A stretch of 64,000 nt of DNA, taken from assembly GCF_019655435.1 (NCBI RefSeq), contig NZ_BPFH01000003.1, forward strand, positions 1 to 64,000, given 5' to 3'. The stretch comes from Jannaschia pagri. Lineage in GTDB: Bacteria; Pseudomonadota; Alphaproteobacteria; Rhodobacterales; Rhodobacteraceae. The notes beneath the pieces were generated by a model. It did not search any database. It saw only the letters and a program-made list of their open reading frames with translations, and had not been told where the DNA came from. Both the position numbers and the translations under genes were made by a program. Numbering within the stretch: the stretch's first letter is position 1; each line of letters starts with the position of its first letter. Shown one piece after another: positions 3,028 through 11,553 of this stretch.

Positions 3028-3393
3028 ATGATTACCCCCTTCGATATCTGGGCGCCCATGATCCGGGCGCCCTTTTCCGGTGACGTCACCCAGGAGATTA
3101 CGCCCCGCGTCCTCTCACCCGACATTGCAGGCCAGACCGAGATCGAGCGGACCATCCATACGGAGGTCGCCAGCTACGGCACGCAGCTGGGCAAAATACT
3201 AGAGGCGCTTCAGACGCTTTCGGACGCAACGAAGACACCTCTGCCGGACATCGACAAACTGGTCACTAAGGTGGAGACCGCCAAAACCCGCAACAAAGAC
3301 GACCTGCGCGCCGATGCGAAGGCCGCGCTAGAACGACTGCGCGCAGTGGATGAGGACGGCTGGCGCGCGCTCACCTCCGTGCGGGAACCTTGA
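3028..3393 (+). CDS. hypothetical alpha-helical protein
   Basis: This is a 121-residue protein I do not recognise. ATG 3028 is preceded by an excellent AGGAGG site seven bases upstream, so it is very likely translated. It begins MITPFDIWAPMIRAPFSGDV, and after about residue 30 it becomes rich in charged residues, alanine and leucine with a predicted long-helix character (ALERLRAVDEDGW near the end). There is no signal peptide, membrane segment or cysteine cluster. It is the gene just upstream of ffh, separated by about 170 bases containing an ACGCCC/GGGCGT hairpin near 3490. Its length and helical nature resemble small phasin-like proteins, but this is only an impression. Confidence 0.75.
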   Translation: MITPFDIWAPMIRAPFSGDVTQEITPRVLSPDIAGQTEIERTIHTEVASYGTQLGKILEALQTLSDATKTPLPDIDKLVTKVETAKTRNKDDLRADAKAALERLRAVDEDGWRALTSVREP

Positions 3394-3562
3394 CTCGCGT
3401 CACCTAGGGGCGTACCCCGACGGCAAAACCCGGAAGCGACAGCCTTCCGGTCCTCGGCCTTTTCCGGGGATCGCCCTCCGCCAGCGTTATACGCCCGCGG
3501 GGGCGTTTGCGCATTGGACCGGGCTCGCCCATATGGGGCGGGTCAAACCCGGAGGACGTTGG

Positions 3563-5062
3563 ATGTTCGAGAGCCTGTCAGACCGCCTGGGCGGAGTCTT
3601 TGACCGCCTCACCAAGCAGGGCGCCCTGTCCGAAGACGATGTGCGGACCGCCATGCGCGAGGTCCGCGTGGCCCTGCTGGAGGCTGATGTCTCCCTGCCC
3701 GTGGCGCGCGATTTCGTCAAAAAGGTTACCGCCAAGGCCACCGGCGCCGCGGTCACCAAGTCGATCACCCCTGGCCAACAGGTCATCAAGATCGTCCATG
3801 ACGAGCTGCAATTGGTCCTGGCCGGCGAAGAGGGCATCGCGCCCCTGAAGATCGACAACCCGCCCGCGCCCATCCTGATGGTCGGCCTGCAGGGCTCCGG
3901 TAAGACGACCACCACCGGCAAGCTGGCCCGCCGCCTGAAGGAGCGGGACGGCAAGCGCGTGCTCATGGCCTCGCTCGACGTCTACCGCCCGGCGGCCATG
4001 GACCAGCTGGCCATTCTGGGCGGCCAGATCGGTGTCGACACCCTGCCCATTGTCCAGGGCCAGACGCCCGTGGACATCGCCAAACGCGCCAAGACCCAGG
4101 CCGCGCTCGGCGGGTATGACGTCTACCTGCTCGACACCGCCGGCCGTTTGCAGATCGACCAGGTCCTGATGGACGAGGTCGCCCAGGTCCATGCCGCCGT
4201 CGCGCCGCGCGAAACACTGCTGGTGGTCGATGGCCTGACCGGTCAGGTCGCCGTCGAGGTCGCCGAGGAATTCGACGCCAAGGTCGGCGTCACCGGCGTT
4301 GTCCTCACCCGGATGGACGGAGACGGCCGTGGCGGCGCCGCCCTGTCCATGCGCGCGGTCACCGGCAAGCCCATTCGCTACGTGGGCCTTGGCGAAAAGA
4401 TGGATGCGCTCGAGGAATTCGATCCCCAGCGTATCGCGGGCCGCATCCTCGGCATGGGCGACATCGTGGCCCTGGTCGAAAAGGCTCAGGAGGTCATGGA
4501 GGTCGAGGCCCAGGAACGCATGATGAAGCGGTTCCAGAAGGGTCTCTTCAACATGAACGACCTCAAGGGCCAGCTAACCCAAATGCAGAAGATGGGCGGC
4601 ATGGAAGGCGTCATGGGCATGATGCCCGGCATGGGCAAGATGGCCAAGCAGATGGACAAGGCGGGCCTGGATGACAGCATCCTGAAACGCCAGATCGCGC
4701 TGATCGATTCCATGACCAAGAAGGAACGCGCCAATCCCGCGCTGCTGCAAGCCAGCCGCAAGAAACGCATCGCCGCAGGCGCAGGCCTTCAGGTCAGCGA
4801 GTTGAACCAGCTGCTCAAGATGCACCGCCAGATGGCGGATATGATGAAGAAGATGGGCAAGGGCGGGATGCTCAAGAAGGCCATGGCCATGATGACCGGC
4901 AAGGGCGGTGGCATGCCCGACCCGTCCCAGATGGACCCCGCCGCTTTGGAAGCCGCGTCGAAGCAGCTTGGCTCCATGAAGGGGATGCCGGGCCTGGGCG
5001 GCGGAATGCCTGGTATGCCGCCCGGCATGACCCTGCCCAAGGGATTTGGCGGCAAGAAATGA
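3563..5062 (+). CDS. ffh: signal recognition particle protein Ffh
   Basis: This is the 499-residue GTPase subunit of the signal recognition particle, which binds 4.5S RNA and signal peptides and docks with FtsY at the inner membrane. The N domain covers residues 1-90. The G domain has its P-loop GLQGSGKTT at about 108-116, a DTAGR motif near 200 and TRMDGDGRGG near 260. The methionine-rich M domain covers the last 170 residues and ends in a glycine/methionine tail. ATG 3563 follows GGAGG; the upstream in-frame extension has no similarity. It opens the conserved Rhodobacterales run ffh - GNAT genes - chorismate mutase - rpsP. Confidence 0.98.
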   Translation: MFESLSDRLGGVFDRLTKQGALSEDDVRTAMREVRVALLEADVSLPVARDFVKKVTAKATGAAVTKSITPGQQVIKIVHDELQLVLAGEEGIAPLKIDNPPAPILMVGLQGSGKTTTTGKLARRLKERDGKRVLMASLDVYRPAAMDQLAILGGQIGVDTLPIVQGQTPVDIAKRAKTQAALGGYDVYLLDTAGRLQIDQVLMDEVAQVHAAVAPRETLLVVDGLTGQVAVEVAEEFDAKVGVTGVVLTRMDGDGRGGAALSMRAVTGKPIRYVGLGEKMDALEEFDPQRIAGRILGMGDIVALVEKAQEVMEVEAQERMMKRFQKGLFNMNDLKGQLTQMQKMGGMEGVMGMMPGMGKMAKQMDKAGLDDSILKRQIALIDSMTKKERANPALLQASRKKRIAAGAGLQVSELNQLLKMHRQMADMMKKMGKGGMLKKAMAMMTGKGGGMPDPSQMDPAALEAASKQLGSMKGMPGLGGGMPGMPPGMTLPKGFGGKK

Positions 5063-5081
5063 CGGCAGCCCTGCGCACCCT

Positions 5082-5122
5082 GCCTCCGGTCAACCGGAGG
5101 CCCGCCGCGGGTCACCCCGCGG
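5082..5122. repeat. double-hairpin repeat after ffh
   Basis: A perfect hairpin with arms GCCTCCGG/CCGGAGGC and loop TCAA is at 5082-5101. A second hairpin, CCGCGGG/CCCGCGG, is at 5105-5122. The first hairpin recurs base for base at 15686-15705, again followed by a second hairpin, so this is a dispersed element. It sits between the ffh stop and the first GNAT gene and may act as an intercistronic stabiliser or weak terminator; there is no T-run. Confidence 0.6.
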
Positions 5123-5150
5123 CCACCGCCCCGGATCGGACGGTGCGCAG

Positions 5151-5687
5151 ATGATCGCGAGCGGTCTCCATACCCTCGACGCCATTGCCCCGCTGGAGAC
5201 TGAGCGCTTGGTGTTGCGCGTTCCGATCGAGGCGGATTGGCCGGAGCACCTTGCCTTCGGCCTCTCCGACCGCATGCAATTCACGGGCGGGCCTACGAAC
5301 CGTTGGGGCGCCTGGCGGTCGTTCACTTCAATGCTGGGCCATTGGGTGCTGCGTGGTTACGGTTTTTGGCAAATACTCGAAAAGTCCACTGGCGACCGGA
5401 TTGGCAAGGCGGGCCTCCTGTTCCACGACGGATGGCCGGAACCGGAACTGGCTTGGCATCTCTACGACGGGAACACAGGCAAGGGCTTCGCGACCGAAGC
5501 CGCCCGCGCAGCCCGCACTGATGCGTGGTCGCGTCTCGGCCTCGGCCCCCTCATCAGCCCCATTGACGCCGACAATCATGCCTCCCGCGCCGTGGCCCGT
5601 CGCCTGGGCGCCCGAGTCGAAGGTACGGGCGCCCTCCTGGGCAGCGATGTCGAGATCTGGCGGCACCCGGACCCGGTGCGGACATGA
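5151..5687 (+). CDS. GNAT family N-acetyltransferase (array copy 1)
   Basis: This is a 178-residue acetyltransferase of the RimJ/RimL-like (Acetyltransf_3) group, which moves acetyl from acetyl-CoA to an amine. It shows the array signatures: ETERLVLRVP near residue 16, GHWVLRGYGFW in the middle, DGWPEPELAWH, and the acetyl-CoA loop GKGFATEAARAA. A C-terminal ARRLGARVE segment packs the fold. ATG 5151 gives the paralogues' start register but lacks a clear ribosome-binding site. Substrate unknown; N-terminal acetylation of a ribosomal protein would fit the locus but is inference. Its stop overlaps the ATG of the next open frame (ATGA at 5684). Confidence 0.9.
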   Translation: MIASGLHTLDAIAPLETERLVLRVPIEADWPEHLAFGLSDRMQFTGGPTNRWGAWRSFTSMLGHWVLRGYGFWQILEKSTGDRIGKAGLLFHDGWPEPELAWHLYDGNTGKGFATEAARAARTDAWSRLGLGPLISPIDADNHASRAVARRLGARVEGTGALLGSDVEIWRHPDPVRT

Positions 5688-6448
5688 CAAAGGCCGCCTC
5701 TTACATTCCGACGTGCCGCGCAGAAGCAGGCACGATGCGGGCTTGGCCCTACATGGGGTCTAAAGCCCCCTCTTCTGTTCGCCAGTCAGCGCGCGCCGGT
5801 CTCCCGGGCCACCTCATCCAGCGCAACGTCAGCAACCGCCTGACGAGTATCGTCAACAGTATGGCGGTGCAGGACAGAGCGGTCTCGGAAAGCAACTCGT
5901 GCCAGAGCAAAGACATCCGCCCAATCGGCCTGCGCCGACAAGACCTCCACGAGCGGACGTTGCACACACACTCGGACGTGGCCAGCGGACGTCAGCCCCA
6001 TGCAGTACGCAGATACGGTCGCACAGGTTTGCCGACCCCGAGCGCCCATGGCGACGTCGGTCCCGGGCGAACCGTCTTTGAAGCTGTTACCCAACTGACT
6101 GGCGGGACGCGCGCTCCAGACGCTCACCCGCAGGCCCCCGACCACACCCAATCAGTGCCCAATGACCACAGGTGGGGTGCCGACATGATCCCCCACTCGG
6201 GCCACCACCAGCCCAGCGCGAGCACGCTGACCGTCCTGCTCCAGGACGATCACACTCGGCGTGAGACAGAAACCGACATCGCCCGCCGCCACACCCCTCC
6301 CCAACCGCTGCACGAACAGACCTGGCGCCACGCGGCAGGCCAGCTTGTGCCCACCCAAGCCAAACGGACCGATACCTCAAAGCATCAGAGCTATGTCGTG
6401 ACAACGCCGCGCGTCACCAACGCCTCCTTGCAAGAGGCCCTCCGGTGA
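5684..6448 (+). CDS. uncertain 254-residue open frame between GNAT copies 1 and 2
   Basis: This open frame starts at the ATGA overlapping the stop of GNAT copy 1 and ends at the GTGA overlapping the start of GNAT copy 2, the joining style used elsewhere in this array. My hand count gives about 74% GC at third codon positions and 66% at first positions, which is coding-like. The protein is odd: rich in Arg, His, Gln, Thr and Pro, without hydrophobic core or known motif. The reverse strand in register holds two shorter frames (6358-6152 and 6151-5786), so a decayed minus-strand gene is an alternative. Treat it as unproven. Confidence 0.3.
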   Translation: MTKAASYIPTCRAEAGTMRAWPYMGSKAPSSVRQSARAGLPGHLIQRNVSNRLTSIVNSMAVQDRAVSESNSCQSKDIRPIGLRRQDLHERTLHTHSDVASGRQPHAVRRYGRTGLPTPSAHGDVGPGRTVFEAVTQLTGGTRAPDAHPQAPDHTQSVPNDHRWGADMIPHSGHHQPSASTLTVLLQDDHTRRETETDIARRHTPPQPLHEQTWRHAAGQLVPTQAKRTDTSKHQSYVVTTPRVTNASLQEALR

Positions 6449-6939
6449 CGCTCCCATCCACGATAACGACCGAACGTCTGGTGCTTCGCCCCTTCGAGAT
6501 GCGCGATCTCGATGCCTACGTCGCTTATTACACCGGTCCGCGCACAACCGGCGTGGGCGGGCCTAAGCCACGGTACGTCGTAGCCGAACGCTTCCAGGCC
6601 ATGGCCGGTCAATGGGCACTGCGCGGATACGGACGGTATGCCATCACGGATGGGCAAGCCGCCTTTGGACATGCTGGCATCATGCATGTGGATGACGGCG
6701 ACCCCGCTGAAATGACCTGGACCCTCTGGCACACCCAATGGGAAGGCAAAGGCTTCGCAACGGAGGCCTGCCGCGCCATCTTGACCGCCTGGGCTGGGGA
6801 ACCACTGGTCGCTCGGATTGCACCATCGAACGGACGCTCCATCGCCATGGCGCAACGGCTTGGCTTTGTGGAAGACCCAAACGCCCCGCCACCATCCTAC
6901 GATCAAACGATGCGCACTTATCGGCAGGTCGCACAATGA
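6445..6939 (+). CDS. GNAT family N-acetyltransferase (array copy 2)
   Basis: This is a 164-residue acetyltransferase paralogue starting with GTG at 6445, in the same N-terminal register as the others (TITTERLVLRPFEMRDLDAY). Mid-protein QWALRGYGRYAI matches the array signature, and the acetyl-CoA loop is GKGFATEACRAI. It lacks the WPEPEL motif of its neighbours, having DPAEMTWTLW instead, so it is one of the more diverged copies. The start overlaps the stop of the preceding open frame (GTGA), and its own stop overlaps the next frame at 6936 (ATGA). Substrate unknown. Confidence 0.88.
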   Translation: MTLPSTITTERLVLRPFEMRDLDAYVAYYTGPRTTGVGGPKPRYVVAERFQAMAGQWALRGYGRYAITDGQAAFGHAGIMHVDDGDPAEMTWTLWHTQWEGKGFATEACRAILTAWAGEPLVARIAPSNGRSIAMAQRLGFVEDPNAPPPSYDQTMRTYRQVAQ

Positions 6940-7295
6940 CGCTGTCCCGCCCATCGCCCCGTGCCCACATGCCTGCCCCTGCGCAAGCCTTATGCCCACC
7001 GCGAAGCCGCCGACTTAGCCCGGTCAGACGGCATGGCGTTCAGGCTGTACAGGCCACACTTACGGGCGCCCTGCTCTGCGTCGTTACCGTATCGCCTATC
7101 CGGGTTGTGGCCGCCCACAATCACGCAGGCTTGTCGTCCCGGCATGGCTCATTATTGACACCTATTGGCCGCGCGCGCCTCTCACCCAGCCTTGCCAGAC
7201 AACACGACCGCAACGCGCACATGGGCGCCTCCGTCCGCCGGGGGCAGTTCGACGAACGGCCCCTCCAGTGCGACCGAGGCGCAGACACGCCATGA
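6936..7295 (+). CDS. uncertain 119-residue open frame between GNAT copies 2 and 3
   Basis: This is the second of four spacer frames in the array. It begins at the ATGA shared with the stop of GNAT copy 2 and ends at the ATGA shared with the start of copy 3 (7292). The product is basic and rich in Arg, Pro, Ala and His, with one hydrophobic stretch (LTGALLCVVTVSPIRVVAA, about residues 43-61) that could be a weak membrane segment. There is no similarity that I recognise. It may be a real coupled cistron, or simply a spacer kept open so ribosomes can reach the next start. Confidence 0.3.
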   Translation: MTLSRPSPRAHMPAPAQALCPPRSRRLSPVRRHGVQAVQATLTGALLCVVTVSPIRVVAAHNHAGLSSRHGSLLTPIGRARLSPSLARQHDRNAHMGASVRRGQFDERPLQCDRGADTP

Positions 7296-7816
7296 TGCCC
7301 CTCACCATTCCCACCCTAACGACCGAGCGCCTGATCTTACGCGCCCCGACACGAGCGGACTTCGCGCCCTCCGCAGCGCTCCTCGCCAGCGCGCGCGCGA
7401 CCTACATGGGAGGGCCCTACGACCGAGCCGCGGCTTGGGCCCAGTTCACTGGGGCCTGCGCGTCTTGGCTTTTGGAGGGCTTCGGAAGTTGGATGATCAC
7501 CGATCGCGCCACAGGCGCCTGGCTCGGTGAGACAGGCATCACCCACCCCGACCACTTCCCGGAACCTGAGTTAGGCTGGATGGTCGCCCCAGAGGCCGAG
7601 GGCCAAGGCATCGCCCATGAGGCGGCCCGCGCCGCCCAAACCTGGGGCCTGCAAACGCGCGGCTTGGCAACCTTCGTCTCCTATGTGGATCCCGAAAACA
7701 TCCGCTCCCTGGCTTTGGCCCGGCGCCTCGGGGCGCGCCAAGACGACAGCGCTCAACGTCCAGCAGGCGAAACACCCGCAGATACCACCGTCTTTCGCCA
7801 CGGAGGGCGCCCATGA
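7292..7816 (+). CDS. GNAT family N-acetyltransferase (array copy 3)
   Basis: This is a 174-residue acetyltransferase with the full array signature: TIPTLTTERLILRAPTRADF at the N-terminus, GGPYDRAAAWAQF, then FPEPELGWMV. The acetyl-CoA loop is GQGIAHEAARAA, with histidine where most copies have threonine. The C-terminal NIRSLALARRLGAR segment is conserved. Two adjacent start codons (7292 and 7295) exist; 7292 keeps the ATGA coupling to the previous frame. Its own stop overlaps the start of copy 4 at 7813, so the two are translationally coupled. Substrate unknown. Confidence 0.9.
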   Translation: MMPLTIPTLTTERLILRAPTRADFAPSAALLASARATYMGGPYDRAAAWAQFTGACASWLLEGFGSWMITDRATGAWLGETGITHPDHFPEPELGWMVAPEAEGQGIAHEAARAAQTWGLQTRGLATFVSYVDPENIRSLALARRLGARQDDSAQRPAGETPADTTVFRHGGRP

Positions 7817-8334
7817 TCGCCCTTGCGCCAACCCCAATCCTGCGCACGCAACGCCTCACCCTCCGGGCCCCCATCGCGACCGATTGGCCGGGGATCCGGG
7901 ATTTCATGGCCTCGCCCCGCTCCCGCTGGGCGGGAGGTCCCCTGGATCGGCGAAACGCTTGGCGCCTCTTCGGCAGCTTCGTGGGCCATTGGGTGCTGCG
8001 CGACTACGGTCTCTTCGTCTATCATCGGCACGACGACCCGACCCCACTCGGCACCGTCGGCCCCTACCGCCCCGAGGGCTGGCCCGAGCCGGAAATCGGC
8101 TGGACCCTCTGGGACCCCGCCTCCGAGGGCCAGGGCTACGCCACCGAGGCCGCACGCAAGACGCTCGCCTATGCCCGCGACACCCTGCGGTGGGCCTCCG
8201 CCGTCAGTTACATCTCATCCGCAAATACGGCCTCGATTGCGGTGGCCGAGCGCCTGGGCGCGTCCTTTGACCCCGCGGCGACACCAAACCACGACGGCGC
8301 GCTCGTCTACCGTCACTGGGGGCAAGCCCAATGA
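7813..8334 (+). CDS. GNAT family N-acetyltransferase (array copy 4)
   Basis: This is a 173-residue paralogue. Its motifs in order are LRTQRLTLRAPIATDWPG, GGPLDRRNAWRLFGSF, GHWVLRDYGLFVY, GWPEPEIGWTLW and the acetyl-CoA loop GQGYATEAARKT, ending with SIAVAERLGASFD. It is one of the closest copies to copy 1 by these motifs. It starts inside the ATGA of copy 3, and its stop again forms ATGA with a 41-residue spacer frame. All residues of the GNAT fold that I can place are present, so the enzyme is probably active. The acceptor is unknown. Confidence 0.92.
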   Translation: MIALAPTPILRTQRLTLRAPIATDWPGIRDFMASPRSRWAGGPLDRRNAWRLFGSFVGHWVLRDYGLFVYHRHDDPTPLGTVGPYRPEGWPEPEIGWTLWDPASEGQGYATEAARKTLAYARDTLRWASAVSYISSANTASIAVAERLGASFDPAATPNHDGALVYRHWGQAQ

Positions 8335-8456
8335 CCGTCCTTCACCATCACGGGTCACTCAATACTCCAGAGAGCGCGAGAGACAGCGTCTCTCGCCGCG
8401 CCGGACGGGGCTCGATGCCCCGATCGGTGCGCCTGGCCCAAAGGACGTGCCCATGA
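8331..8456 (+). CDS. possible micropeptide in spacer repeat 1
   Basis: This 41-residue open frame runs from the ATGA at the end of GNAT copy 4 to the ATGA at the start of copy 5. Its product shares the pattern HHGS-NTPES-R-S-SRR-RGSMPR with the 42-residue frame at 10010-10138, which lies in a copy of the same DNA element. Because the DNA itself is repeated and hairpin-forming, peptide similarity may only reflect the repeat. Translation through it would keep ribosomes coupled from copy 4 to copy 5. Confidence 0.3.
   Translation: MTVLHHHGSLNTPESARDSVSRRAGRGSMPRSVRLAQRTCP
8345..8422 (+). repeat. spacer repeat, copy 1, with two hairpins
   Basis: The element begins CATCACGGGTC and contains AATACTCC. 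A hairpin with arms GCGAGAGA/TCTCTCGC and loop CAGCG is at 8376-8396, and a second, CGGGGC/GCCCCG with loop TCGAT, is at 8406-8422. The copy at 10028-10105 has the same layout. The first stem differs at two base pairs, G-C to A-T and A-T to G-C, both compensatory, which supports a conserved RNA structure. Confidence 0.75.
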
Positions 8457-9013
8457 TTGGCCCGTGCACCATCCCAACCACGCCCGCAGCCGTGGCCCAA
8501 GCGGCCGCCCTCGAGGCGCTCGTGCCAAAGCTACGCACCCCGCGCACAACGCTCCGGGCGCCCCGTCTCAGCGACTTCGAAGCGCTCCATGGAATCACCG
8601 GTAGCGACCGCAATGCCTTCGAGGGCGGGCCCTCCACCCCAGAAGAAACCTGGACCGACTTCTGTGGAATGACAGCCACCTGGATCCTGCGGGGCCACGG
8701 CCTGTGGACGGTGGACACCTACGGGGGCGATGTGGCGGGCTTCGTCCTGATTGGCACCGAACCGGGGGACGAGGAACATGAGCTCGGCTGGCTCCTCTGC
8801 GCCCCTTACGAAGGCATGGGCCTCGCCACCGAAGCGGCCATGGCGGCCCGCACCCATGCCCAAAAGACCCTGAACCTGCCCTCCCTTGTCAGCTATATCG
8901 CACCGGGCAACGCGCGGTCCGAGGCCGTCGCGCAACGTCTCGGGGCCGTCCCCGACGGCACCATACTCAACGACCAAGTCACCATCTGGCGACACTGGGG
9001 AACCGCCCAATGA
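8453..9013 (+). CDS. GNAT family N-acetyltransferase (array copy 5)
   Basis: This is a 186-residue acetyltransferase starting at ATG 8453. It carries about 25 extra N-terminal residues before the LRTPRTTLRAPRLSDF motif compared with its neighbours. It then has GGPSTPEETWTDF, ATWILRGHGLWTV and EHELGWLLC, with the acetyl-CoA loop GMGLATEAAMAA. The C-terminal ARSEAVAQRLGAV segment is conserved. The frame is open far upstream but overlaps copy 4 there, so the internal ATG is preferred. Its stop forms ATGA with copy 6. Substrate unknown. Confidence 0.9.
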   Translation: MIGPCTIPTTPAAVAQAAALEALVPKLRTPRTTLRAPRLSDFEALHGITGSDRNAFEGGPSTPEETWTDFCGMTATWILRGHGLWTVDTYGGDVAGFVLIGTEPGDEEHELGWLLCAPYEGMGLATEAAMAARTHAQKTLNLPSLVSYIAPGNARSEAVAQRLGAVPDGTILNDQVTIWRHWGTAQ

Positions 9014-9501
9014 TCCCAACCCTGACCACAGAGCGTTTGACCCTTCGCGCCCCCGAGACGCGCGACCACGCGGCCTATGCGGCGTTCTACGCCTCGCCCC
9101 GCTCCGAAATCATCGGCGGCCCCTTGGACGAAACCGCCGCCTGGAAAATCCTGACAAACGACGTGGGCCACTGGCATTTGCGCGGTTTCGGCTGGTGGTC
9201 GTTGGATGACGGAACCGGCTGTGTGGGATCCTGCGGCTTCCACCTCCCCGAGGGGCGCCCGGATGTGGAACTGGGCTGGTCCCTGTTTTCAGGTATGGGC
9301 CGGGGCTATGCGACCGAAGCGGCCCAAGCGGCATTGGCCTGGGCAGGCACCCGTTGGCCCCGAATCGTCAGCCACATCGACCGCGACAACCGGGCGTCTG
9401 CACGCGTCGCCCTGCGCTTGGGCGCCACGGACACCGGTGTGCCGCCTGCCCATGATCCGCTCTGCACGATCTGGCTGCACGATGTCGGGGGCGCTCCATG
9501 A
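9010..9501 (+). CDS. GNAT family N-acetyltransferase (array copy 6)
   Basis: This is a 163-residue copy, the shortest of the array. It shows IPTLTTERLTLRAPETRDH, GGPLDETAAWKIL, GHWHLRGFGWWSL, RPDVELGWSLF and the acetyl-CoA loop GRGYATEAAQAA. It starts within the ATGA of copy 5 and ends in the ATGA of copy 7, so copies 5, 6 and 7 form one directly coupled block. Its cofactor-binding loop is complete, so it should bind acetyl-CoA. The acceptor cannot be inferred. Confidence 0.92.
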   Translation: MIPTLTTERLTLRAPETRDHAAYAAFYASPRSEIIGGPLDETAAWKILTNDVGHWHLRGFGWWSLDDGTGCVGSCGFHLPEGRPDVELGWSLFSGMGRGYATEAAQAALAWAGTRWPRIVSHIDRDNRASARVALRLGATDTGVPPAHDPLCTIWLHDVGGAP

Positions 9502-10013
9502 TCCCCACCCTCACCACCGCGCGGCTCACCCTGCGCGCCCCTACGTTGGCGGATTTCGAGGCCCACGCCGCATTTCGCGCATCCGATCGCGCGGCCTTTG
9601 TCGGCGGCCCGTCCGACCGAAGCATCTCTTGGGGCCATTTCGCCGCCATTCCAGGCCAATGGGCCCTGCGCGGGTATGGCCGTTGGCTGGTAGCCGACCG
9701 CGACGCCGATGCGCCGCTCGGCATTGTCGGCCTGCACCACCCGGACGACTGGCCCGAGCCGGAACTTGCCTGGACCATGTACGCCGCCGGTGAGGGCCGT
9801 GGCGTCGCGCAAGAAGCGGCGCTGGCCGCCCGCGCCTATGCCTACGACACCCTGGGCTGGACCACCCTGATGTCCTTCGTGGATCCCGCCAATACTCGCT
9901 CCATGGCCCTCGCCCTACGCCTCGGCTGCCATCCCGACGGCACCCACAGCCATCCGCAGTTCGGCACGTTCCACGTCATGCGCCACCCCGCCCCGTCGGA
10001 GGCCACCCAATGA
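9498..10013 (+). CDS. GNAT family N-acetyltransferase (array copy 7)
   Basis: This is a 171-residue copy with the motifs IPTLTTARLTLRAPTLADF, GGPSDRSISWGHF, QWALRGYGRWLV, DWPEPELAWTMY and the loop GRGVAQEAALAA, in which glutamine replaces the usual threonine. It ends NTRSMALALRLGCHPDG. It is coupled to copy 6 by ATGA. Its own stop forms ATGA with the 42-residue frame that fills the spacer before copy 8. The near-identical first 14 residues of copies 6 and 7 suggest recent duplication or gene conversion. Confidence 0.92.
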   Translation: MIPTLTTARLTLRAPTLADFEAHAAFRASDRAAFVGGPSDRSISWGHFAAIPGQWALRGYGRWLVADRDADAPLGIVGLHHPDDWPEPELAWTMYAAGEGRGVAQEAALAARAYAYDTLGWTTLMSFVDPANTRSMALALRLGCHPDGTHSHPQFGTFHVMRHPAPSEATQ

Positions 10014-10138
10014 TCCGAACACCCTCCCATCACGGGTCCAGCAATACTCCGGAGAGCACGAGAGGCAGCGCCTCTCGTCGGGGCCAGCGGGGCTCAATGC
10101 CCCGCGGGCCCCGCCCCCTGCCCGGAGGTCACCCATGA
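10010..10138 (+). CDS. possible micropeptide in spacer repeat 2
   Basis: This 42-residue open frame bridges GNAT copies 7 and 8, sharing ATGA with the stop of copy 7 and with the start of copy 8 at 10135. It is similar to the spacer frame at 8331-8456 (common pattern HHGS-NTPES-R-S-SRR-RGSMPR). A GGAGG stretch near its end serves as ribosome-binding site for copy 8. Real peptide or read-through spacer cannot be distinguished from sequence. Confidence 0.3.
   Translation: MIRTPSHHGSSNTPESTRGSASRRGQRGSMPRGPRPLPGGHP
10028..10105 (+). repeat. spacer repeat, copy 2, with two hairpins
   Basis: This is the second copy of the element at 8345-8422. The first hairpin has arms ACGAGAGG/CCTCTCGT and loop CAGCG (10058-10078). 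The second is GCGGGGC/GCCCCGC with loop TCAAT (10087-10105). Differences from copy 1 in the first stem are paired. The core AATACTCCGG followed by a CAGCG-loop hairpin also relates it to the intergenic repeat at 13448-13487. Confidence 0.75.
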
Positions 10139-10737
10139 GCCGCGCAAACATTCCAACCCTTGAAACCCGGCGCCTGATCCTGCGCGGTCCGGAGCCTGAG
10201 GATTATCCCGACTTCAAGGCCACCTTCGCCTCCTATCGGTCGCGGTTCATGGGCGGTCCTCTGAACGCTTACGAAGCTTGGATGCTCTACGCCGCCGAAA
10301 TCGGCCATTGGGACATCCGTGGCTTCGGCATGTGGATGATCCACGCCAAAGACGACGACCGCACCCTGGGGATGGCCGGCGGGTGGCAGCCAGCTGGCTG
10401 GCCCGAACGGGAACTCGCCTGGATCATCTGGCCCGGCGCTGCGGGACAGGGCTACGCGCTGGAGGCAACCCACGCCGTGCGCCGCCATCTCTACGCCCAA
10501 GGGTGGGACGGCGCGGTGACCTATGTCGACCCCAAGCACCTCGATTCGATCCGGCTCTGCGAACGGTTGGGCGCCAAACGGGACCCACAGGCGCCGACGA
10601 TCGACGGCAACGACGTGGCGTACCGCCATCCCGGCCCCGAAGCACTGCTAGATACACAGCTTGCCTGGGCCATCGACCGCGAGATCGACCATTATGCGGA
10701 CCCCAGCCTTAAGCCTGAGGGGGTCCCCGTTGACTAA
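10135..10737 (+). CDS. GNAT family N-acetyltransferase (array copy 8)
   Basis: This is a 200-residue copy, longer than its neighbours by a C-terminal tail rich in acidic residues (EIDHYADPSLKPEGVPVD). Motifs: IPTLETRRLILRGPEPEDYP, GGPLNAYEAWMLY, GHWDIRGFGMWMI, GWPERELAWIIW and the acetyl-CoA loop GQGYALEATHAV. ATG 10135 follows GGAGG, the best ribosome-binding site in the array, and also keeps the ATGA contact with the preceding spacer frame. It is followed at about 100 bases by chorismate mutase. It ends with TAA, unlike the ATGA stops of the other copies. Confidence 0.92.
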   Translation: MSRANIPTLETRRLILRGPEPEDYPDFKATFASYRSRFMGGPLNAYEAWMLYAAEIGHWDIRGFGMWMIHAKDDDRTLGMAGGWQPAGWPERELAWIIWPGAAGQGYALEATHAVRRHLYAQGWDGAVTYVDPKHLDSIRLCERLGAKRDPQAPTIDGNDVAYRHPGPEALLDTQLAWAIDREIDHYADPSLKPEGVPVD

Positions 10738-10833: not shown

Positions 10834-11130
10834 ATGACCGACGCCACAACCCGCGCCGCCGCCATTCTGGCGGAGCATCGCGACAGCATCGACCGCCTCG
10901 ACGCCGTGCTGGTCTATACCCTGGCCGAGCGCTTCGCCCACACCCAGGCGGTGGGCAAACTCAAGGCAGAACACGCCCTTCCGCCGTCCGACCCGGACCG
11001 GGAGGCCAAGCAGATCGCGCGACTCGACAGGCTCGCCGAAGAGGCCGGGCTTGATCCCGACTTCGCCAAGAAATTCCTCGGGTTCATCATCGAGGAAGTC
11101 ATCCGTCACCATCGGACCCACCAAGCCTAG
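10834..11130 (+). CDS. chorismate mutase, AroQ class
   Basis: This is a 98-residue all-helical chorismate mutase, which converts chorismate to prephenate for phenylalanine and tyrosine synthesis. The N-terminal helix has IDRLDAVLVYTLAERFAHTQAVGKLK, with the arginine and lysine that bind the substrate carboxylates. A long C-terminal helix ends FLGFIIEEVIRHH. It is a stand-alone domain with no dehydratase attached. ATG 10834 follows CGGAGC; the upstream extension is not similar to the family. Its position between the acetyltransferase array and rpsP is a recurring Rhodobacterales arrangement. Confidence 0.93.
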   Translation: MTDATTRAAAILAEHRDSIDRLDAVLVYTLAERFAHTQAVGKLKAEHALPPSDPDREAKQIARLDRLAEEAGLDPDFAKKFLGFIIEEVIRHHRTHQA

Positions 11131-11178: not shown

Positions 11179-11553
11179 ATGGCTATGAAAATTCGCCTCG
11201 CCCGTGGCGGCTCCAAGAAGCGCCCCCATTACGCCATTGTGGCCGCCGACAGCCGCATGGCCCGCGATGGCCGCTTCATCGAAAAGCTGGGCACCTACAA
11301 CCCGCTCCTGCCCAAGGACAGCGAAGACCGCGTCAAGATGAACATGGAGCGCGTGCAATACTGGCTCGGCCAGGGCGCCCAACCCACCGACCGGATTTCG
11401 CGCTTCCTCGAAGCCGCTGACGTGCTGCCCAAGAAAGAGCGCGCCAACATGAAAAAGGCCGAGCCGGGCAAGAAAGCCCAGGAACGCGCCCAGGAAAAGG
11501 CCGACAAAGCCGCTGCGGCCGCCGAGTCCGAAGCCACCCCGGCAGAGGAATAA
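11179..11553 (+). CDS. rpsP: 30S ribosomal protein S16
   Basis: This is a 124-residue S16 of the small ribosomal subunit. The conserved core is [24 protein letters not shown], followed by [14 protein letters not shown] and the segment ending [15 protein letters not shown]. After residue 90 there is a lysine/alanine-rich tail ending in ATPAEE, as in other alphaproteobacteria. Start at 11179 (MAMKIR), with AAAGGAAAA upstream. It heads the rpsP-rimM-trmD-rplS group, from which it is separated by two hairpins and a small membrane-protein gene. Confidence 0.98.

Follow-up and report, generated by a model that had tools for sequence, protein, structure and literature searches.

Open frames across the spacers of a Rhodobacteraceae acetyltransferase operon as probable ribosome relays

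Introduction

Eight genes for GNAT acetyltransferases lie between ffh and a chorismate mutase gene (cm), ahead of rpsP, in the window (the whole 64,000-nucleotide stretch of Jannaschia pagri DNA analysed here; Table 1). All eight products exceed the gathering score of profile PF13302 (82.7 to 103.8 bits vs 25.4). Some of these genes overlap directly, stop on start, and others stand apart, raising the question of why the DNA between them should be open from the stop codon of one gene to the start codon of the next. A preliminary description offered two answers: the frames are small genes that had gone unrecognised, or selection maintains the spacers as a passage for ribosomes from one acetyltransferase to the next. 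Comparison of related operons points to a form of the second: the spacers are probably relay frames kept for translational continuity.

Table 1. Features of the ffh to rpsP segment (window coordinates)
Feature	Position	Strand	Evidence and remarks
ffh (signal recognition particle protein)	3350..5062	+	NCBIfam TIGR00959 4e-168; listed ORF, start putative; stop ATGA 5059-5062
Relay frame 0, 31 codons	5059..5154	+	ffh stop ATGA to GNAT 1 start ATGA; two strong hairpins, RNA fold z -3.7
GNAT 1	5151..5687	+	PF13302 1e-26
Relay frame 1 (spacer 1), 254 codons	5684..6448	+	codon-like composition; no convincing relatives; no fold predicted
GNAT 2	6445..6939	+	PF13302 5e-23; start GTG
Relay frame 2 (spacer 2), 119 codons	6936..7295	+	without Pfam match, not codon-like
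GNAT 3	7292..7816	+	PF13302 2e-29; start ATG at 7292 or 7295
GNAT 4	7813..8334	+	PF13302 2e-28; direct ATGA overlap with GNAT 3
Relay frame 3 (spacer 3), 41 codons	8331..8456	+	ORF and relatives' counterparts
Dispersed two-hairpin element, copy inside relay frame 3	8345..8422	+	sequence comparison
GNAT 5	8453..9013	+	PF13302 5e-23; long N-terminus subfamily
GNAT 6	9010..9501	+	PF13302 8e-28; direct ATGA overlap
GNAT 7	9498..10013	+	PF13302 6e-28; direct ATGA overlap
Relay frame 4 (spacer 4), 42 codons	10010..10138	+	ORF and relatives' counterparts; end GGAGGTCACCCATGA
Two-hairpin element, copy inside relay frame 4	10027..10104	+	82% identity to copy in relay frame 3
GNAT 8	10135..10737	+	PF13302 5e-23; stop TAA, spacer to cm unbridged
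Chorismate mutase (cm)	10834..11130	+	NCBIfam PRK09239 3e-43, PF01817 8e-21
rpsP (ribosomal protein S16), then rimM, trmD	11179..11553	+	profile matches

Arrays and gaps surveyed

The survey comprised 167 distinct arrays of ffh, 1 to 10 GNAT genes, cm and rpsP from relatives and the window, the remainder of 179 loci after removal of 4 without a proper ffh-rpsP frame and then of 8 among 175 that were duplicates or GNAT-less. The sample took in 80 of 298 relatives, not all of them labelled Rhodobacteraceae, 18 of the 19 other genomes of the same genus (G001 gave no match), and a further set of 80 arrays picked among the matches listed, each with at least three GNAT matches. These arrays are related, so that counts from them are not fully independent, and the sampling favoured large arrays. 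Removal of phase-0 N-terminal extensions left 111 gaps behind NTGA stops, 52 of them ffh>GNAT, 32 GNAT>GNAT and 27 GNAT>cm. The rule that admits two linked frames as a bridge was devised after the phase-1 cases were known and was applied to shuffled data too; the single-frame, cluster and first gene-pair counts are independent of it. The landing range differs slightly between the linked-frame count and the gene-caller control, with the same counts for the operon.

Frames in the window

The four frames originally proposed (relay frames 1 to 4) are all present, beginning in the upstream ATGA and ending, as described, in the overlap at the following start codon (GTGA or ATGA). A fifth, between ffh and GNAT 1, had been missed, and a small ORF overlaps both flanking genes in five of the five window spacers. 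The shared phase and openness, presented at the outset as unexplained, are only moderately unlikely within the window alone and lie far beyond chance across the relatives. The chance of a shared phase per spacer is nearer one half than one third, since an open spacer in phase 0 is read as an N-terminal extension; among 95 long-distance GNAT-GNAT junctions, 61 are in phase 0, many of them from the long N-terminus subfamily, and the upstream NTGA is usable as a start in 58 of these 61. In 5000 dinucleotide shuffles of each spacer, 62, 813, 3006 and 3656 remain open for spacers 1, 2, 3 and 4, respectively, and openness is striking in the window alone for spacer 1 only. Spacers 3 and 4 are, moreover, not independent, because one element is common to both.

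Gaps behind NTGA stops in relatives

Across the arrays, 91 of the 111 NTGA gaps are in phase 2 and 20 in phase 1 (binomial 5e-12), with 85 of the 91 ending exactly on the next start. Single frames bridge 85 gaps exactly and two linked frames another 10. In 11 more the landing is less exact, either overlapping the next start by 7, 8 or 11 bases or leaving a 1-base gap, and only 5 have no bridge. The overlaps at relay ends are -4 in 71 cases, -1 in 10 and both in 4, with 4 at -8 in the linked-frame count, and relay lengths vary while both end overlaps persist. Spacer length modulo 3 and in-frame stops in relatives had been proposed as a check, and by this check the NTGA gaps bear out the ribosome-carrying alternative. 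Gaps after other stops at the same junctions (CTGA in 38, TAA or TAG in 30) divide 22 vs 32 between phases 2 and 1, and only 9 of these 68 are bridged by a mechanical test, so coupling is not kept everywhere.

A reading without selection would treat the spacers as inserted DNA or the remains of genes, flanked by ATGA ends inherited from old overlaps, with phase and openness as leftovers or chance. Insertion into an ATGA junction gives ATGA at both ends, GC-rich DNA is easily open (48 of the 85 phase-2 spacers are expected to be open after shuffling), and several relays resemble partial GNAT or NIPSNAP genes and would have been in phase and open from the outset. Spacers derived from genes inherit both properties, so that no selection is needed for those. 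Yet with frames matching GNAT or NIPSNAP set aside, the phases still divide 76 vs 13, with 70 bridged, and 47 vs 7 per sequence cluster (2e-8); non-gene-like repeats, including window spacers 3 and 4 and those of arrays L129, L140 and L175, are in phase as well. Shuffled bodies given a random phase of 1 or 2 land in 36% of cases (sd 4%, maximum 46%, 60 repeats), whereas 101 of the 106 longer real gaps do so (95%); shuffled bodies that keep the real phase land in 54%. Frames resembling partial GNAT or NIPSNAP genes bridge exactly in six of seven cases, a set that excludes array L235 (28 codons, GNAT E 0.011), and the frame of array L135 shows GNAT similarity only in the first 197 of 483 bases and nevertheless bridges. 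The GNAT-like frame of L030 may be divergent rather than dead. The reading without selection is already disfavoured, and we consider it improbable; selection rather than mutation bias is the probable cause of the excess.

With one gene caller throughout, bridging is seen in 74 of 83 gaps of the operon vs 13 of 54 for other gene pairs (Fisher 7e-15), possible N-terminal extensions having been set aside in 19 operon pairs, 25 other pairs and 3 cm>rpsP pairs. Polarity would do the greatest damage to an essential gene at the cm>rpsP junction, yet bridging there (7 of 23, by anchor) is no more frequent than in the controls, and GNAT-free junctions are bridged fairly often in this control (rpsP>rimM 13 of 27, rimM>trmD 4 of 6). 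In an initial gene-caller control, other NTGA gaps were bridged in 86 of 274, much of this supplied by ffh>GNAT (28) and GNAT>cm (19), with 9 of 79 for unrelated pairs; its rpsP>rimM value (10 of 28) reflects in part one frame whose hydrophobic peptide is similar between arrays L042 and L076. An SD-like 4-mer is equally frequent at relay ends and at direct junctions (0.68 each, with 0.59 at other gapped starts), so ribosomes could also initiate there independently; the corresponding 5-mer frequencies are 0.28, 0.41 and 0.33.

Junctions with and without a spacer

At all five window junctions that hold a relay, the GNAT on the downstream side has a reciprocal best hit within the genus that is joined to its own upstream gene by a direct ATGA. 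These counterparts share only the downstream gene (45 to 84% identity), and the spacers may have been gained within the genus. Upstream of the GNAT 5 counterparts, relays of 41, 42, 30, 3 and 161 codons occur in five genomes and a direct overlap in 9. In one pair of sister species, G372 carries a 32-codon relay that includes a dispersed double palindrome, and the corresponding site in G436 is a simple ATGA overlap, so that a relay inserted at a start/stop junction can be set beside the empty site in a relative.

Relay frames as possible small genes

Some bridging frames are genes. An intact NIPSNAP gene of 110-112 codons fills this role in 14 arrays, and the frame of array L080 is weakly sulphur-transport-like (27.3 bits vs a cut-off of 27). 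The proposal of unrecognised small genes holds for these and possibly for spacer 1; the relay peptides inspected are mostly dissimilar, and a Pfam search with the 31 unrecognised frames that bridge a gap and have 38 or more codons gave no match at E 0.01. Pooled unrecognised relays show a third-position GC excess (0.73 vs 0.66 and 0.65), so that functional or recently dead genes may be among them. That the bridging frames in general are real small protein genes, coupled to their neighbours like any operon gene, is nonetheless improbable, given the five different lengths upstream of the GNAT 5 counterparts and the absence of codon signal in spacers 2-4 (z 1.1, 0.7 and 0.1).

Spacer 1 is the most gene-like of these spacers by composition, with GC1/2/3 of 0.66/0.55/0.74 (p 5e-5) and a codon score z of 5.6 in the bridging frame, and its rarely matched openness under shuffling points the same way; the frame is possibly a small gene. 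Its matches, however, are short or weak. A DNA search of 59 other genomes returned just four, of 23 to 44 bases (E 0.001 to 0.008), and a protein search of 393 family genomes three (E 0.007 to 0.009), two of which contain stops; plasmids and phages gave none at E 0.01, and within its own genome the spacer matches only itself. A single-sequence structure model of the peptide is unfolded (mean pLDDT 45). Matches at E ~1e-8 from tblastn without composition correction were set aside as presumed composition artefacts of out-of-frame extensions. An inverted GNAT inside spacer 1, hinted at by one 73% inverted repeat, is unsupported. Nor did DNA or protein profiles give any significant match that would mark spacers 1 and 2 as decayed copies of GNAT or NIPSNAP genes; the DNA profiles detect the remnants in arrays L135, L134 and L224 at E 7e-25 to 9e-6.

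Repeats and RNA structure

The element in spacers 3 and 4 has matches, many partial, in 7 of 20 same-genus genomes (its own included), and the repeat of the L175 spacer gives 113 match rows in G372, where its palindromic form means that places are counted more than once. Such short spacers might instead work as structured RNA, their hairpins stabilising the mRNA between cistrons or adjusting its translation, with the frame incidental. Both hairpins hold in 98.4% of cells across 9 chosen element copies, with both-side changes at two pairs, a count that 38 of 500 shuffles also reach, and three window spacers fold more stably than their shuffles (z -3.7, -3.7 and -4.2). Outside the arrays, 8 of 12 element copies lie wholly between crude gene calls. 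A structural role would leave unexplained the phase, the overlap at both ends and the relays that lack the element, and at the corresponding junction the spacer of L131 is no more stably folded than its shuffles (z -0.7); we regard a structural role as quite improbable. The lone Rfam match, a sub-threshold lncRNA on the minus strand of GNAT 8, was taken as chance.

The ends of spacer 4 resemble a target-site duplication (GGAGGCCACCCAATGA vs GGAGGTCACCCATGA). As a general rule, target-site duplication was rejected: 64 relays score 6.59 of 16 vs 6.29 for cross-pairings (p 0.034), with 1 at the 99th percentile. A dispersed ATACTCC motif was likewise rejected as the spacers' common origin, with 39 occurrences of AATACTCC vs ~28 expected; AAATACTCC has 28 vs ~5 expected.

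Discussion

The proposed relay mechanism can be outlined as follows. The run from ffh through the GNAT genes to cm is largely joined by stop-start ATGA overlaps, and extra DNA behind an NTGA stop, whether a palindromic repeat, NIPSNAP cargo or GNAT remains, occurs almost exclusively in a form open to passage by ribosomes. Such a spacer begins on the upstream NTGA, lacks internal stops and overlaps the next start briefly, mostly by 4 bases or 1. The ribosome finishing the upstream gene would reinitiate on the relay start, translate a peptide mostly of no consequence, terminate on the start of the next gene and begin again at that point. Such a path would probably be of benefit by keeping GNAT translation coupled and by preventing Rho polarity over untranslated C-rich RNA.

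Dispersed paired hairpins between genes are also a feature of REP/BIME-type palindromic repeats; the copies in the arrays differ in lying within a frame open at both ends. Another architectural parallel is found in the mycobacterial interspersed repetitive units (MIRUs), reportedly from the work of Supply et al. in 1997. One review describes MIRUs as short, apparently mobile repeats that insert at start codons and thereby couple an inner ORF to the gene at -4 nt (PMC12548453). Window spacers 3 and 4 and the L175 spacer are similarly dispersed repeats with a small ORF overlapping both neighbours, a likeness of architecture to that review's description rather than to MIRU sequence. Unlike MIRUs, the relays occur in other bacteria, also consist of unrelated DNA (2 to 254 codons), cargo or partial genes, and are frequent in one operon.

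Termination-reinitiation offers a second parallel. In PMC10666635, the commonest gene overlaps are -4, -1 and -8, the same as those at relay ends, and gaps of 14 to 38 nt weaken or nearly abolish coupling. Coupling as covered there joins adjacent genes, whereas here an intermediate frame would carry the overlap across spacer DNA. Short upstream ORFs, including bicistronic designs, deliver ribosomes to the next gene, according to PMC12548453; a relay would similarly bring ribosomes to the next gene through a frame whose peptide is possibly irrelevant, but it sits behind a coupled gene itself and can be chained. Among the open-access papers listed, no title or opening of an abstract mentioned such relays, whether for this operon or for Rhodobacteraceae.

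Whether ribosomes scan across spacers after termination is disputed (PMC10666635). Ribosomes able to do so would make relays unnecessary, and the scarcity of unbridged NTGA gaps is evidence from evolution that they cannot scan the spacers of this operon. The relays are natural test constructs for this question, one of them with a spacer-free sister species. They also carry a warning, in that translated small intergenic frames need not encode useful peptides. A broader and rather doubtful extension is that this operon segment is selected for an unbroken ribosome path, with any DNA that lands behind its coupled stops surviving solely as a translated relay; dead genes and repeats would then stay translated, making it a nursery of proto-genes with spacer 1 as an advanced case. 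More generally, the relays suggest a route by which spacer DNA may become translated on its way to a new gene.

Relay frames in the window

In the window, ffh, eight GNAT acetyltransferase genes, chorismate mutase (cm), rpsP, rimM and trmD are all read in the same direction. Direct ATGA overlaps join GNATs 3-4, 5-6 and 6-7, and spacers are present at the ffh-GNAT 1 junction and at all remaining GNAT junctions. The preliminary description of four spacers open from stop to start was correct and its count one short: every one of the five, including that between ffh and GNAT 1, is a single open frame that opens in the upstream gene's stop ATGA and closes in the following gene's start ATGA or GTGA (a relay frame). 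Two starts are possible for GNAT 3, 7292 and 7295. GNAT 8 ends in TAA, and the spacer between it and chorismate mutase is unbridged.

Relay frames and their positions in the window
Bridging frame	Position
ffh-GNAT 1 spacer	5059-5154
Spacer 1 (GNAT 1-2)	5684-6448
Spacer 2 (GNAT 2-3)	6936-7295
Spacer 3 (GNAT 4-5)	8331-8456
Spacer 4 (GNAT 7-8)	10010-10138

The odds from the window alone are modest, and relatives are required, because spacers 2, 3 and 4 stay open in 813, 3006 and 3656 of 5000 shuffles, spacers 3 and 4 have a 78-base repeat in common (82% identity), and an open phase-0 spacer would pass as an N-terminal extension and not as a gap (phase being the start-to-start distance modulo 3). 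Spacer 1 alone resists shuffling (62 of 5000). For its frame, GC1/2/3 is 0.66/0.55/0.74 (p 5e-5) and the codon score exceeds that of shuffles by 5.6 sd, signals of codon usage that neither measure detects in spacers 2-4. DNA matches in 59 other genomes number only four (23-44 bases, E between 0.001 and 0.008), a protein search of 393 family genomes yields three weak matches near E 0.008, and searches of plasmids and phages give none at E 0.01. A single-sequence AlphaFold2 model, itself weak evidence, is unfolded (mean pLDDT 45). The choice for spacer 1 lies between an orphan gene, a gene that died recently and a relay gaining codon bias.

Phase and bridging across the family

The window was combined with 80 public loci, 18 same-genus arrays and, from elsewhere in the family, 80 arrays of other genera, GNAT copy number being read between ffh and rpsP (L013-L092, L128-L145, L166-L245). 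Of these 179 loci, 175 have ffh and rpsP where expected, and these reduce to 167 distinct arrays, which carry 1 to 10 GNATs each and 4-base overlaps at 310 of 411 GNAT-GNAT junctions. The window's own genus spans copy numbers 1 to 10 in this interval.

Scoring of the ffh>GNAT, GNAT>GNAT and GNAT>cm junctions gave 111 gaps behind an NTGA stop, 91 in phase 2 and 20 in phase 1 (binomial p 5e-12), against 22 and 32 behind other stops at the same junctions (Fisher 2e-7) and 19 and 19 for the loci's other gene pairs (Fisher 2e-4). In 85 of the 91 phase-2 gaps the frame finishes precisely at the next start; 71 of these frames overlap it by 4 bases, 10 by a single base, and 4 allow either choice. Two linked frames, such as NIPSNAP and then a relay of 18, 30, 33, 41 or 44 codons, give exact arrival in 10 of the remaining gaps. 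In 11 more, the overlap measures 7, 8 or 11 bases or a single base is left between frame and start, and 5 of the 111 are unbridged. Behind non-NTGA stops, 9 of 68 gaps are bridged.

Landing occurs in 101 of 106 longer gaps versus 36% for shuffled spacer bodies at random phase 1 or 2 (maximum 46% over 60 repeats), and 54% when the real phase is retained. Of 85 phase-2 spacers 80 are open, against an expectation of 48 (sd 3.7, genes included). With a single gene caller on both sets, bridging affects 74 of 83 operon gaps and 13 of 54 other pairs; some controls are not low (rpsP>rimM 13/27, rimM>trmD 4/6), and cm>rpsP, scored by anchors, is bridged in 7 of 23. Removal of GNAT- or NIPSNAP-matching frames leaves phases 2 and 1 at 76:13, with 70 bridged, in a remainder that still holds a few genes (e.g. 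the L080 pair). Under the same exclusion, grouping by DNA similarity gives 57 clusters, 47 wholly phase 2, 7 wholly phase 1 and 3 mixed (p 2e-8), the largest having 26 members chained through short matches. The bridging pattern across the family is not chance.

Some GNATs in L200, L139, L221, L135 and L021 have unusually long possible N-terminal extensions (anchor distance 102-195) that begin precisely at the upstream ATGA and resemble phase-0 insertions that have become part of the protein.

Origins of the relays

For all five relayed window junctions, the reciprocal best hit of the downstream GNAT is joined upstream by a direct ATGA in 1 to 9 same-genus genomes, where the upstream partner may be another gene than in the window. 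Ahead of GNAT 5 counterparts, five genomes have relays (41 codons in the window, 42 in L129, 30 in L131, 3 in L130, 161 in L135), nine a direct overlap and two other arrangements (L133; L140, where NIPSNAP is combined with an 18-codon relay). These direct counterparts suggest, by comparison of arrangements and not from a tree, that the junctions were coupled first and the spacers added afterwards.

One source of relays is palindromic repeats dispersed in the genome. The two-hairpin element of spacers 3 and 4 has matches elsewhere in 7 of 20 same-genus genomes, its own included; of 12 sites outside arrays, 8 fall entirely into intergenic stretches by crude gene calling, the rest overlapping a call or being unclear. 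Across 9 chosen copies, pairing holds in 98.4% of the cells of its two hairpins. Both-side changes occur at two pairs, a count reached by 38 of 500 shuffles, and the covariation score is matched by none of 500. A different double palindrome forms the relay that follows GNAT 1 in genome G372, where sister G436 carries a plain ATGA; it gives 113 match rows in G372, a figure that counts sites repeatedly because they are palindromic. This repeat (L175:8335-8436, minus strand; palindromes of about 22 bases each, CAAGCGCCTTCGAAGGCGCTTG type) occurs in dozens of copies in G372 and in fewer in G021.

Gene remnants are another. Exactly bridging GNAT-like frames of 164 (L030), 161 (L135), 78 (L040), 77 (L224) and 50 (L049) codons and an 85-codon NIPSNAP-like frame in L135 are incomplete, apparently dead genes, as is a NIPSNAP remnant in L134 that stops 1 base before the next start. 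The 161-codon frame begins GNAT-like, loses similarity at base 197 and still reaches the next ATGA, its end resembling the element (82% over 40 bases).

Cargo genes also contribute, e.g. NIPSNAP in 14 arrays (L128:4392, L129, L131:5892, L136, L138, L140:4144, L142, L144, L145, L207, L227, L243, L035, L187). This gene of 110-112 codons lies behind ffh, amid the GNATs or ahead of chorismate mutase, suggestive of a mobile cassette; nine printed copies start MITCTV at the upstream ATGA. Two Planktomarina MAGs (L080:4881-5740; L079) contain an in-array pair of ~143-codon frames joined by a stop-start overlap, the first in L080 weakly sulphur-transport-like (PF04143). Finally, spacer 1 is unique DNA, as spacer 2 probably is by comparison with the fetched loci.

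Coupling or small genes

Two readings had been offered, unrecognised small genes or spacers selected to carry ribosomes. The second is better supported, and the first holds for a minority only. Among 31 unrecognised bridging frames of at least 38 codons, not one matches Pfam at E 0.01. In L042 and L076 the rpsP-rimM interval contains a 55-codon frame whose hydrophobic peptide is alike in the two loci, possibly an unannotated small membrane protein.

According to PMC10666635, 14-nt gaps lower reinitiation in native E. coli pairs by 40-80% and 38 nt nearly abolish it; the overlaps it gives as commonest (-4, -1, -8) are those that relay ends mostly use. PMC12548453 ascribes polarity to Rho acting on RNA that is not translated. 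C is enriched in relays (C/G ratio 1.21 versus 1.03 in GNAT genes), and such RNA would favour Rho if untranslated. SD-like 4-mers are equally frequent at relay ends and direct junctions, which counts against strict dependence on coupling.

The arrangement is of a known kind, that of reinitiation relays and of MIRUs, repeats with ORF coupling at -4 nt (PMC12548453). What appears to be new is how widely it occurs here, unrelated DNA having been brought into relay form again and again within one operon.
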